Below, piece after piece: positions 3,433-6,614 of a stretch of DNA of 33,047 nucleotides (positions are counted from its first letter, which is position 1; each line of letters begins with the position of its first letter). The notes under the pieces were generated by a model. That model made no database searches. It was given only the letters and a program-made list of their open reading frames with translations, and was not told where the DNA came from. The stretch lies in NCBI GenBank assembly GCA_900314335.1, contig OMUV01000095.1, positions 1 to 33,047 of the forward strand, in the 5' to 3' direction. Source of the DNA: an uncultured Prevotellaceae bacterium (GTDB taxonomy: Bacteria; Bacteroidota; Bacteroidia; Bacteroidales; Bacteroidaceae). A program made the position numbers and the translations under genes.

Positions 3433-4078
3433 AGTCCTCTCCTCCGGTAGCGTCGTCATAGTTGATGTCCTCGCCATAGTTCCATTCCGTCTCGAGCGAG
3501 TCCTCTTCGTGCATGTCATCATCGGTCAGACCGTTGCCCACCACCAGTGTGAGCCTCTCTGTGATGCGCACACGTGTGCCGGCCGTTACCTCGCGGCCGC
3601 CGGCCTTGATGCCGTAGACCCACTCCCGCTCGCCGTTGATATACTGCGGCGGAGCGAGCGAGAAGCCCATGGCCCTGAGACGCGACTCGGCCTCGCGCAT
3701 CGAACTGTTGTCCACGATGTCGGGCATCACGATGGTGGGAGGCGAGGCGGCGTTGACCGTGATGTCCACCTCGCGTCCGGCCTTGACGCGCGAGCCCGCC
3801 GCTACCGACTGGTCGAGCACCACGCCGGGCTTCTTGCTGGCGATGTAGCCCGAGTCGGTCACTACACACTTCAGGCCCTCCTGCTCCAGTGTCAGGCGGG
3901 CCCGCTCCATGCTCATTCCCCTGAGCGAGGGCACAGTGATCTCCTCGCCGTGGCGTGTGTAGATGTTCAGGCCCTCGGAGATCAGGAAGACAATAAACAC
4001 TCCCACCGCTACCATAGCCAGCAGATTGGCCAGCAGATAGCGGCTGAAGACAGCCCTGAAGAACTCCCGAACCTTCAT
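3419..4078 (-). CDS. Membrane-anchored PASTA-domain protein
   Basis: A 219-residue protein with a short cytoplasmic N terminus, one membrane helix (about residues 14-35), two PASTA domains in the periplasm (about 46-112 and 113-184), and a very acidic tail in which nearly half of the last 35 residues are Asp or Glu. PASTA domains typically bind peptidoglycan or muropeptides. There is no kinase or transpeptidase domain, so this is a stand-alone PASTA protein. A GAGGAG sequence directly abuts the ATG at 4078. It heads the operon with rluD, ddl and an acyltransferase, and the ddl neighbour fits an envelope role. The molecular partner is unknown. Confidence 0.88.
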   Translation of the reverse strand: MKVREFFRAVFSRYLLANLLAMVAVGVFIVFLISEGLNIYTRHGEEITVPSLRGMSMERARLTLEQEGLKCVVTDSGYIASKKPGVVLDQSVAAGSRVKAGREVDITVNAASPPTIVMPDIVDNSSMREAESRLRAMGFSLAPPQYINGEREWVYGIKAGGREVTAGTRVRITERLTLVVGNGLTDDDMHEEDSLETEWNYGEDINYDDATGGEDYDGE

Positions 4079-4134
4079 CTCCTCTGTGCGGCGGTGTGCG
4101 AGGGCTTCGGCGCCTGGTGTTTGCTAAAATGCAA

Positions 4135-4172
4135 AAGAAGTAAAGGCTTGCTGTGCCAAACCTCTACTTCTT
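4135..4172 (-). terminator. Rho-independent terminator after rpmH
   Basis: Arms 4135-4146 and 4161-4172 form a 12-bp stem with one G-U pair. On the minus strand the stem is followed by TTTTGCATTTTA. It lies between the rpmH stop and the PASTA gene. Confidence 0.75.
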
Positions 4173-4202
4173 CGATTTCTATTGGGCCGAAGTCCGAAAT
4201 GA

Positions 4203-4361
4203 TTAGTTTTTGCCGTGTACTTCGTCCGAAACAGTCAGTTTCTTGCGACCCTTAGCGCGGCGGGAAGCCAATACGCGGCGACCGTTGGCCGTCTGCATGC
4301 GGCTGCGGAAACCATGCTTATTGTTTCTCTTACGGTTGTGAGGTTGAAATGTACGTTTCAT
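4203..4361 (-). CDS. rpmH: 50S ribosomal protein L34
   Basis: Translating the minus strand gives a 52-residue, very basic protein starting [12 protein letters not shown] and containing the classic L34 segment NKHGFRSRM followed by [19 protein letters not shown]34 is a small protein of the large ribosomal subunit. Length and sequence are typical, with a slightly extended C terminus (SDEVHGKN). It is shorter than most ORF length cut-offs and easy to miss. It has its own promoter (4439-4469) and terminator (4135-4172), so it looks like a single-gene transcript. Confidence 0.97.
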
Positions 4362-4438
4362 TGTTCTATGTTTTTTATTTTATGTCTTATATATTATATA
4401 TGCGTACGCGGCTTTGCCGTCGGGGCGCTTACGGGCTG

Positions 4439-4469
4439 CAAAGTTAGAGATTTTTTTTCATCCGCACAA
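4439..4469 (-). promoter_or_regulatory. Bacteroidetes-type promoter of rpmH
   Basis: On the minus strand the -7 box TAACTTTG lies at 4446-4439, with TTG at 4469-4467, giving a 20-base spacer. It is about 80 bases upstream of the rpmH ATG. Confidence 0.7.
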
Positions 4470-5000
4470 CGATAAGCATCTTTTATTCTCTTATTTGATT
4501 GCTATTTACTGCCGTAACTTATTCCGGCGGGCGTGTTTGCCGCCGTTTTTATGCGCGGCGCTGACTTCTGAAGCCCGCGCCGCGCCCTCTGCCGCGCTAC
4601 CGCGGCACTACATTCCGGCCATAAAATCCCGCTACCAAGACAGACTATATCAACTGATTCTGCATATAATGCACGACTGTGTAAACTTGTCCTGCGCATA
4701 GCGAAAGAAGGTGACAAACAATTTAGTTATTAACTTCAGAAGTTGTCAACTATTTCCAGTAAACTACAGGTTATCACATGACAATTGCGATGTGATTGCA
4801 TGACAATTGCGATGTGATTGCATGACAATTGCGATGTGATTATATGACAATTGCGATGTGATTGCATGACAATTGCGATGCATTCTCATGACAGCTGTCA
4901 TGCATAAACCAGGTGGGAGAAAAAATTGAGCTCACGTATTACAGCATACATTATAGCATTACCTATTATATAATGCATGATTTCCGCGTAGCATACAAAA
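4470..5000. other. Non-coding spacer between rpmH and rubrerythrin, with AT-rich segment
   Basis: About 530 bases without a credible gene. It contains a GC-rich stretch at about 4520-4620, an odd-centred dyad AGTTGTCAACT at 4741-4751, the six-site 22-bp array at 4777-4902, and an AT-rich segment at about 4915-4985. Short ORFs here have no recognisable products. The combination of an iteron-like array beside AT-rich DNA close to rpmH resembles a replication-origin layout, but I see no clear cluster of TTATNCACA DnaA boxes, so function is left open. Confidence 0.6.
4777..4902. repeat. Six dyad sites in exact 22-bp register
   Basis: The 16-base imperfect dyad CATGACAATTGCGATG recurs at 4777, 4799, 4821, 4843 (first base T) and 4865. 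A sixth site at 4887-4902 is a perfect palindrome, CATGACAGCTGTCATG, in the same 22-bp register. Sites are separated by GTGATT-like hexamers. The first site has longer arms, TCACAT...ATGTGA (4774-4795). A period of 22 bp is about two helical turns, so the sites face the same side of the helix, as in operator or iteron arrays. No protein partner can be named. Confidence 0.9.
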
Positions 5001-5029
5001 AGGGCCGCACCCGCTCCGGGTACAGCCCT
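4996..5029 (-). terminator. Rho-independent terminator after rubrerythrin
   Basis: On the minus strand a 12-bp stem (two G-U pairs) spans 5029-5001 with a GGAGC loop, followed by TTTTTG. It starts 22 bases after the rubrerythrin stop. Confidence 0.88.
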
Positions 5030-5051
5030 CATGTGCCTATAAGGGAAGAAT

Positions 5052-5603
5052 TTACTTGCCGCCGAAGTAGCGATCCAGCAGTCCCTTGAAGCCGCGGCCG
5101 TGACGAGCCTCGTCTTTGGCCATCTCGTGAACGGTGTCGTGGATAGCGTCGAGACCCAGCTGCTTGGCGCGCTTGGCGATGCGGAACTTGTCGCTGCATG
5201 CGCCTGCCTCGGCTGCTGCGCGCTTCTCAAGGTTGGTCTTCGTATCCCATACCACGTCGCCCAGGAGCTCGGCAAACTTGCTGGCGTGCTCAGCCTCCTC
5301 AAAAGCGTAGCGCTTGAAGGCCTCGGCGATCTCGGGATAGCCCTCGCGGTCGGCCTGACGGCTCATCGCAAGATACATGCCCACTTCGCTGCATTCGCCG
5401 TTCCAGTGTGCATTGAGGTCCTTGATCATCTCCTCGTCGCAACCCTTGGCCACGCCCAGTTCGTGCTCTGTCTCAAATGTCAGTTCATCGTCCTTTACCT
5501 CCTTGAACTTGGAAGCGGGTGCATGGCACAGCGGGCACTCTGCAGGGGGTTCTGTTCCTTCGTAAACGTAGCCGCAAACGGTGCAAATAAATTTCTTTTT
5601 CAT
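5052..5603 (-). CDS. rbr: Reverse rubrerythrin (N-terminal rubredoxin plus ferritin-like diiron domain)
   Basis: Cytoplasmic non-haem iron protein that by family reduces hydrogen peroxide in anaerobes, protecting against oxidative stress. The 183-residue product begins with a rubredoxin-type iron site (Cys7, Cys10, Cys23, Cys26: CTVC...CPLC) followed by a ferritin-like four-helix domain with ligand-type motifs such as NGECSE, EEAEH and DEARHG. The order rubredoxin-first is reversed relative to classical rubrerythrin. Start at 5603 ([11 protein letters not shown]) is set by the rubredoxin domain; the longer in-frame start at 5711 would translate the promoter and leader. Flanked by its own promoter and terminator, hence monocistronic. 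Confidence 0.94.
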
Positions 5604-5681
5604 AATCTCTTGGGTTTTGTTGTGATTGTTACGTAGTTTGTTTCTCTTGTCCCCGAATCCCGTTCCCGAGAAACGAAGATG

Positions 5682-5711
5682 CAAAAGTACGCAAATTTTC
5701 CGAACCGGCAA
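5682..5711 (-). promoter_or_regulatory. Bacteroidetes-type promoter of rubrerythrin
   Basis: On the minus strand: TTG (5711-5709), 19 bases, TACTTTTG (5689-5682). About 80 bases upstream of the ATG at 5603. Confidence 0.7.
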
Positions 5712-5814
5712 GCGCCGAGGAAGAATCTATTGTTAAAAGAAGTTTAATTCGCAAGGCTTCCACCGCGGCCAAAAACATAAGCGCCGCCGCGAAAGCTATT
5801 AGATGGGATTTTTA

Positions 5815-5822
5815 TATATTTG
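5815..5822 (+). promoter_or_regulatory. Promoter -7 box of the trmH-family operon
   Basis: TATATTTG matches TAnnTTTG and lies 25 bases before the ATG at 5847. No clear TTTG is seen 19-21 bases upstream. Confidence 0.5.
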
Positions 5823-5846
5823 CATTACTAATCCAGCCTTATAAAA

Positions 5847-6614
5847 ATGCTGAGCGGAAACGAAATAAAACACATACGCTCCCTGGAGCTCAAGAAATAC
5901 CGCGATGCGGAGGGCCTGTTCGTAGCCGAAGGGCCGAAGATGGTGGAGGAGATGCTCGACGCGTTCCCCCTGAGGCGGCTCATAGTGGAGGAGGGCAAGA
6001 CCTTCGCCGCTGCGCCCCGCGGCACTAAGGTGGAGTATGTCAGCCCCGCGGTGATGCAGCGCCTCTCGTTCCTCAAGACGCCTCACGACGTGATAGCCGT
6101 GTTCGCCAAGCCCGCGCCCGGAGAGGGCGGGAGCCTCGCGAGCGTGGCGGAGAGGGAGCTCTGTCTGGCGCTCGATGACATACAGAATCCCGGTAACCTC
6201 GGCACCATCATCCGCACGGCTTCGTGGATGGGCGTGAGACATGTCTTCTGCTCTCCCTCGACGGCCGACGTCTATTCGCCCAAGGTGCTCCAGGCCACAA
6301 TGGGCGCCCTCGGCACAGTCAGGGTGAGCTATTGCGACCTGCCCGACGCTCTCTCCCGCTGCAAGGCCGACGTGTGGGGCACATTCCTCGACGGGGAGAA
6401 CATCTACACCTCAACGCTCTCCTCCACGGGCGTCATCGTCATCGGCAATGAGGGCGGAGGCATCAGCCGCGAGGTGGAGCGCACAGTGACCCGCCGCCTG
6501 TTCATCCCGCCCTATCCGCCTGAGGGCCGCCATGTAGAGAGCCTCAACGCCGGCATGGCTACGGCCATCACTCTTGCTGCTTTCCGCTCGCGTTATTACA
6601 GGCCAATCCGTTAA
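5847..6614 (+). CDS. TrmH/SpoU-family RNA 2'-O-methyltransferase
   Basis: Predicted SPOUT-class methyltransferase that uses S-adenosylmethionine to methylate a ribose 2'-OH in rRNA or tRNA. The 255-residue protein has an N-terminal substrate-binding region (about 1-95), then the three SpoU motifs: DIQNPGNLGTIIRTA (about 110-124), VIGNEGGGIS (about 197-206) and ESLNAGMATAI (about 231-241). These form the knotted cofactor site. The exact RNA target cannot be deduced. The stop at 6612-6614 is followed within one base by the glycosyltransferase ATG, so the two are co-transcribed. Confidence 0.92.
   Translation: MLSGNEIKHIRSLELKKYRDAEGLFVAEGPKMVEEMLDAFPLRRLIVEEGKTFAAAPRGTKVEYVSPAVMQRLSFLKTPHDVIAVFAKPAPGEGGSLASVAERELCLALDDIQNPGNLGTIIRTASWMGVRHVFCSPSTADVYSPKVLQATMGALGTVRVSYCDLPDALSRCKADVWGTFLDGENIYTSTLSSTGVIVIGNEGGGISREVERTVTRRLFIPPYPPEGRHVESLNAGMATAITLAAFRSRYYRPIR

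Follow-up and report, generated by a model that had tools for sequence, protein, structure and literature searches.

A 22-bp array of dyad sites between the rubrerythrin and rpmH genes

Six short palindromic sites follow each other at regular intervals near the ribosomal protein L34 gene (rpmH) of an uncultured Prevotellaceae bacterium, and the question raised by this locus is whether they form a special site, such as a replication origin or an operator, or are one copy of an element that occurs elsewhere in the genome. The stretch of DNA analysed, hereafter called the window, is 33,047 nucleotides long and corresponds to contig C167 of a 219-contig, 2.74-Mb MAG.

The six dyad sites and their exact 22-bp spacing, first noticed in a sequence-only reading of the locus, are real. 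They span positions 4777-4902 of the window on the plus strand and are 16 bp each, with starts at 4777, 4799, 4821, 4843, 4865 and 4887, i.e. 22 bp from start to start throughout. The first five are near-identical, as had been described: units 1 (4777..4792), 2 (4799..4814), 3 (4821..4836) and 5 (4865..4880) read CATGACAATTGCGATG, and unit 4 (4843..4858) reads TATGACAATTGCGATG, with T in place of C as its first base. They are imperfect dyads, the consensus being complementary at six of the eight arm pairs. The terminal unit 6 (4887..4902), CATGACAGCTGTCATG, is indeed a perfect palindrome, but the centre for which it had been singled out is not special, as CAGCTG is the commonest centre genome-wide (84 of 141 units), and a palindromic final unit also forms the border of several other arrays in the genome. 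Allowing three mismatches, the 16-mer matched five times within the window versus 0.32 expected, a number reached in none of 100 shuffles. The proposed alignment of the sites on one face of the helix holds only roughly: with 10.5 bp per turn, a 22-bp step rotates each site by ~34 degrees, or ~170 degrees over the six.

The array lies between two minus-strand genes, ~150 bp past the stop codon of a rubrerythrin gene (5055..5606; PF02915 and PF21349) and ~415 bp upstream of rpmH (4206..4361; PF00468; stop codon ending at 4203). A terminator-like hairpin (5000..5030, minus strand) is located 3' of the rubrerythrin gene, and the array is situated beyond it. Rubrerythrin searches assign the organism to Bacteroidales; the closest matches, Candidatus Amulumruptor among them, were ~80% identical.

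The array belongs to a dispersed intergenic family

A genome-wide search with the 16-mer returned 94 matches with up to two mismatches, distributed over many contigs, versus none in the reversed control. The array is not a special site beside one gene. Arrays were catalogued in the ~1.35 Mb that was read (about half of the genome), which takes in the regions around nearly all 16-mer matches. This located approximately 31 arrays or single units of CATGACARYTGCGATG plus a 6-bp linker; 30 of the 31 lie outside called genes, and the remaining one overlaps a short predicted ORF with a weak score. Arrays contain one to nine units. Of 106 pairs of neighbouring cores, 102 have the 22-bp spacing, a count that excludes eight half-period matches. 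The genes that flank the arrays are diverse, and no common function was found among them. At 17 arrays a contig end takes the place of the second flanking gene, as expected if the repeats broke the assembly, so that unit numbers in the MAG may be compressed; such arrays may account for many assembly breaks in genomes of this kind. Mean unit identity is 0.858 within arrays versus 0.711 between arrays, which indicates local amplification. At one contig end, another array, which belongs to a diverged subfamily (AATGRCAATTGYGATG), is found ~90 bp from the first (L014:2953-3051).

The repeated dyads, the AT-rich DNA nearby and the proximity of rpmH, all noted in the earlier reading, would be in keeping with a replication origin, an iteron or partition site, or a multi-operator that serves rpmH. 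Such roles are extremely improbable and were rejected. The dispersal of ~31 arrays beside unrelated genes contradicts them, as does the location of dnaA, which is on another contig (C193). No DnaA-like box (up to one mismatch) was found at 3900-6000, and the parS sequence TGTTTCACGTGAAACA (up to two mismatches) had no match in the 1.35-Mb half of the genome. Nor was any 21/22-bp array detected in the 16 relatives in which the 700 bp upstream of rpmH are readable.

Ends and mosaic structure of the element

Alignment of the copies gave a consensus layout in which the units are bounded by an end A, AAAATTACAAGGCACATAATT, and an end G, TAnGTGGGAGAAAAAATC. The A-type motif, AAYTATGTGCC(TTG), occurs at a fixed offset outward of the last unit at 25 of 51 readable ends (1.4% expected by chance at each). 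A G-type end, with a GGGA/GGAG-type motif, is found at 16 of the 51, this class having been drawn up after the sequences were inspected, and the other 10 belong to neither class. Most elements have one A end and one G end, a few carry the A motif at both ends, and both motifs stay in the 22-bp register of the units. The A motif is also present without 22-bp units, as direct and inverted copies spaced 21 bp, and is specific to this genome, with 38 matches versus 0-4 elsewhere. Some flanking stretches are common to pairs of elements (L011 and L022, L014 and L045), and the family is thus mosaic.

The copy in the window consists of the units and a G-type end, CATAAACCAGGTGGGAGAAAAAATT (4903..4927, plus strand), which starts in the last linker and keeps the 22-bp register. 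Its left flank is a repeated segment that occupies the usual place of the A end: 49 of 50 bases (4714..4763, minus strand) are those of the flank of an array on contig C111 (L012:3219-3268).

We consider it likely, on these grounds, that the array represents a single copy of a short intergenic mosaic element, dispersed, non-autonomous and of the BOX/BIME kind, with the structure end A-(22-bp dyad unit)n-end G. Copies of the element would spread as blocks by means of a putative trans-acting factor, and units would come and go through slippage or recombination. Each dyad would be recognised by a protein that binds DNA as a dimer, and this could account for the retention of the arms, the centre symmetry and the spacing. 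In the window copy, the A side would have been replaced by another repeated segment, and any influence on rpmH or rubrerythrin would be a local by-product of the insertion.

Mobility is suggested only by the dispersal; no target-site duplication, empty site or autonomous partner was found. Among 20 elements, shared 6-9-mers were no commoner in the two flanks than in mismatched flank pairs. A MITE with target-site duplication was rejected, as there is no duplication signal. Neither of the tags GTAG and CGTC is present in the consensus of units and linkers, and no RAYT gene was found beside the repeats. With these results, and with ends that are mostly unlike, we do not assign the element to the MITE or REP families. 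The sole Y1_Tnp match in the genome adjoins a TnpB-like ORF, and no Y1_Tnp match was obtained in Parabacteroides faecalis, whose arrays are described below; a RAYT was rejected as mobiliser, the only TnpA in the genome being IS200/605-like and P. faecalis having none. The Y1 transposase and the TnpB-like ORF form an IS200/IS605-like pair on contig C55 (L283).

Symmetry of the repeat unit

The central dinucleotide is palindromic in 116 of the 141 units analysed versus 80 expected, in a sample that required CA at positions 6-7 and from which conservation at these two positions is not readable. When only the 47 distinct units were considered, the centre was palindromic in 37 versus 26.5 expected (permutation p 0.0025), and internal units picked by register alone gave the same picture. 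Common descent of a few centre types may contribute to this symmetry. Arm positions 4/13 and 5/12 are mostly non-complementary, pairing in only 12 and 31 of the 141 units, respectively, and hairpin-templated correction is therefore no simple cause of the symmetry. The earlier proposal of selection on the dyad thus holds in part: the centre covaries so as to stay palindromic, and the arms of the P. faecalis units are kept, but two arm pairs are asymmetric. Taken with the spacing and the P. faecalis arms, the symmetry suggests that the dyads are probably bound by a putative dimeric protein.

Periodic arrays in this genome and in other Bacteroidales

The family is restricted to this lineage, is intergenic, and has a defined end structure and a fixed 22-bp spacing. 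Searches of 60 relatives gave background matches only, and a degenerate two-unit pattern had no match in 84,980 GTDB genomes or in IMG/VR when its own genome was left out. A comparison with relatives had been proposed as the means of telling a neutral tandem repeat from a conserved site, and on this test the absence of the family and the copy number of 1-9 point to a repeat element, but the dyad and register are kept, unlike those of a purely neutral repeat.

The 22-bp step extends beyond this family. In the non-coding DNA of the genome, 61 tandem arrays have a period of 21 and 26 a period of 22, compared with at most three for any other period below 42; resampled sequence contained no tandem array at either period. 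Non-coding self-similarity was far higher at lags 21, 22, 43, 44 and 66 than at other lags. The periodic units are many and largely unrelated, and over all 21/22-bp units palindromy is moderately raised, with at least seven of eight arm pairs complementary in 8.8% versus 1.4% in shuffles. The E. coli control for periodicity was small (7.6 kb of non-coding DNA). Other intergenic 21/22-bp families include ACAAGGCACATAATT, CTACATTTGAGACGTTTT, CTGCGAGATAAATTATTTTAT and AATTCTCATGCGGATGAAAAT, among others, and loci of such families are, for example, L038:1954-2006, L039:1942-1994, L148:7607-7642, L018:1102-1329, L146:13144-13352 and L097:314-361.

These data bear on the possibility that the arrays are purely neutral minisatellites, produced by chance tandem duplication with neither a binding protein nor a copying mechanism. 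The variable number of units and their greater similarity within arrays are what such an origin would give, but dispersal to ~31 loci with matching end motifs requires copying between loci, the symmetry of the centre is kept, and in non-coding DNA many unrelated units recur with a period of 21/22 bp, whereas periods of 19, 20, 23 or 24 bp are almost unrepresented. We regard a purely neutral origin as quite improbable.

Lags 21 and 22 also peak, along with 14 and 28, in 80 rubrerythrin loci of other Bacteroidales; in three relatives the peaks were weak or different. Dispersed 22-bp arrays, nearly always of four units, were found in P. faecalis (G061, L249-L278). Their unit is YCAC-N4-GTGR (TTYCAC-N4-GTGRAA), with linkers of the ACGATCGT type. 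The CAC and GTG arms are almost invariant in 64 units (62 of 64 at one position), the centre is nearly free, and unit similarity is 0.726 within arrays versus 0.746 between them, i.e. without any within-array excess. These arrays are bounded by TTTTTaTCGTT and AACGATAAAAA, and their arms look like parS half-sites with four inserted bases. Two Parabacteroides/Bacteroides-like MAGs (G063 and G064) contain 23 and 55 dispersed AGTACTNNAGTACT sites, for the most part grouped into arrays with a 22-bp step and 3-5 units (e.g. L198:3687-3766 and L228:3669-3742). A further 22-bp array (L247) is a single locus and is not dispersed.

A conserved position of the arrays across species was rejected; the few array-flanking orthologues in common are rubrerythrin, a flank biased by the fact that those loci were found through rubrerythrin, and ruvA. 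In four lineages, 22-bp arrays made up of three unrelated units lie within ~150 bp downstream of a rubrerythrin gene (the window, L198:3687, L228:3669 and L240:3595), and in at least three of the four they lie beyond a terminator-like hairpin; this recurrence beside rubrerythrin may reflect selection bias. A 22-bp array is also located close to a ruvA-like gene in this genome (L044) and in G064 (L296); the two have unrelated units and do not flank the gene on the same side.

The arrays might alternatively act as RNA, the palindromes forming a long transcript hairpin that serves as a stabiliser of mRNA 3' ends, an attenuator or a terminator. The minus-strand RNA of the array folds better than shuffles (z -4.3), but tandem palindromes fold well trivially. 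Six of the 13 arrays with both flanking genes known lie between convergent genes, compared with 56 of the 253 gaps that measure 200 bp or more; the other seven do not. P. faecalis arrays occur between divergent genes too, and their ends, TTTTT...AAAAA, run in the order opposite to that of a terminator. The array of the window is itself preceded by a distinct terminator-like hairpin, and it had no match in Rfam. An RNA role is in our opinion improbable.

Another reading is that the arrays are functional phased binding arrays kept for the host, in which the dyads would be bound by a nucleoid, topoisomerase, chromosome-organising or regulatory protein and the architecture would itself be the function instead of a consequence of spreading. 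The fixed spacing and the covarying centre are in agreement with it, as are the ~four units per array, near-invariant arms, free centre and lack of within-array similarity excess in P. faecalis, and the recurrence of unrelated unit sequences at 21-23 bp in several Bacteroidales. Against it stand the copy number of 1-9 and evident local amplification in this genome, neighbouring genes without common function, and the absence of the family from relatives. A host function of this kind is possible, and we judge it somewhat unlikely.

We return to the mosaic element as the preferred reading, and consider what its architecture may mean. Dispersed arrays with a 22-bp step are present in four genomes, with three unrelated units; that the architecture recurs across lineages is a claim drawn from these four genomes and one sampled gene neighbourhood. 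The use of a step close to two helical turns by unrelated units suggests that DNA is measured by a protein or by copying machinery. It is conceivable, and we put it forward tentatively, that a general, as yet undescribed Bacteroidales class of dispersed intergenic arrays exists, in which palindromic units of unrelated sequence, always with a period of 21-23 bp, give way to others from one lineage to the next. Such units would be generated or maintained by a rapidly evolving protein that binds or copies DNA and gauges two turns of the helix.

Comparison with known systems

Composite intergenic repeats are known in streptococci, enterobacteria and Neisseria. In layout and behaviour the present family fits such repeats, the pneumococcal BOX element above all and, among Bacteroidales, BrickBuilt. 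Our search of the literature on Bacteroidales found essentially one comparable composite repeat, BrickBuilt of Porphyromonas gingivalis, and nothing relevant on 22-bp palindromic or tandem intergenic arrays in Bacteroidetes or Parabacteroides.

Plasmid iterons are direct repeats of ~20-22 bp placed two helical turns apart, whereas the arrays described here are scattered over the chromosome instead of being grouped at a single origin with a Rep gene, and their units contain a dyad. A CRISPR was rejected, as the linkers are 6 bp long and recurrent between arrays, in contrast to unique spacers of ~30 bp. REP/BIME elements are likewise short palindromic intergenic units that form mosaics with many copies per genome; here, the units are in tandem, in one orientation and at a fixed 22 bp instead of alternating, with neither a GTAG/CGTC tag nor a RAYT found.

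BrickBuilt is a minisatellite inside a MITE, dispersed in the P. gingivalis genome and with an internal 23-nt tandem array; its ends are inverted repeats matching the IS5-family ISPg1/ISPg9, and it causes assembly gaps (PMC4596501). By our own reading, its published consensus, AGAYCATARTATCCTCTCRTRTG, would yield the palindrome TCTCATATGAGA when placed in tandem. It resembles the present element in its presence in Bacteroidales, its dispersal and its internal tandem array, and differs from it in its unrelated sequence and 23-bp period, and in that the two ends mostly differ here. An array with a period like that of BrickBuilt, CAATTTGGCTTGAATACAAAACT x4.9 with a 23-bp period, was found in a relative of the same family (G014, L167:3074-3186).

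The pneumococcal BOX element has the structure boxA-(boxB)n-boxC in Streptococcus pneumoniae (PMC3049150). Its likeness to the element described here is one of layout, with no homology claimed: both are modular, structured, intergenic, dispersed in many copies and lineage-restricted. In both, a variable number of tandem middle modules stands between two fixed ends that differ from each other, and the middle module can also occur with other ends. BOX belongs to another phylum, and in the present element the middle is a 22-bp dyad at exact spacing and the ends are ~20 bp long. As one copy of an interspersed repeat the array is ordinary; it is less so in its fixed two-turn dyad architecture, which recurs with unrelated sequences in other Bacteroidales.
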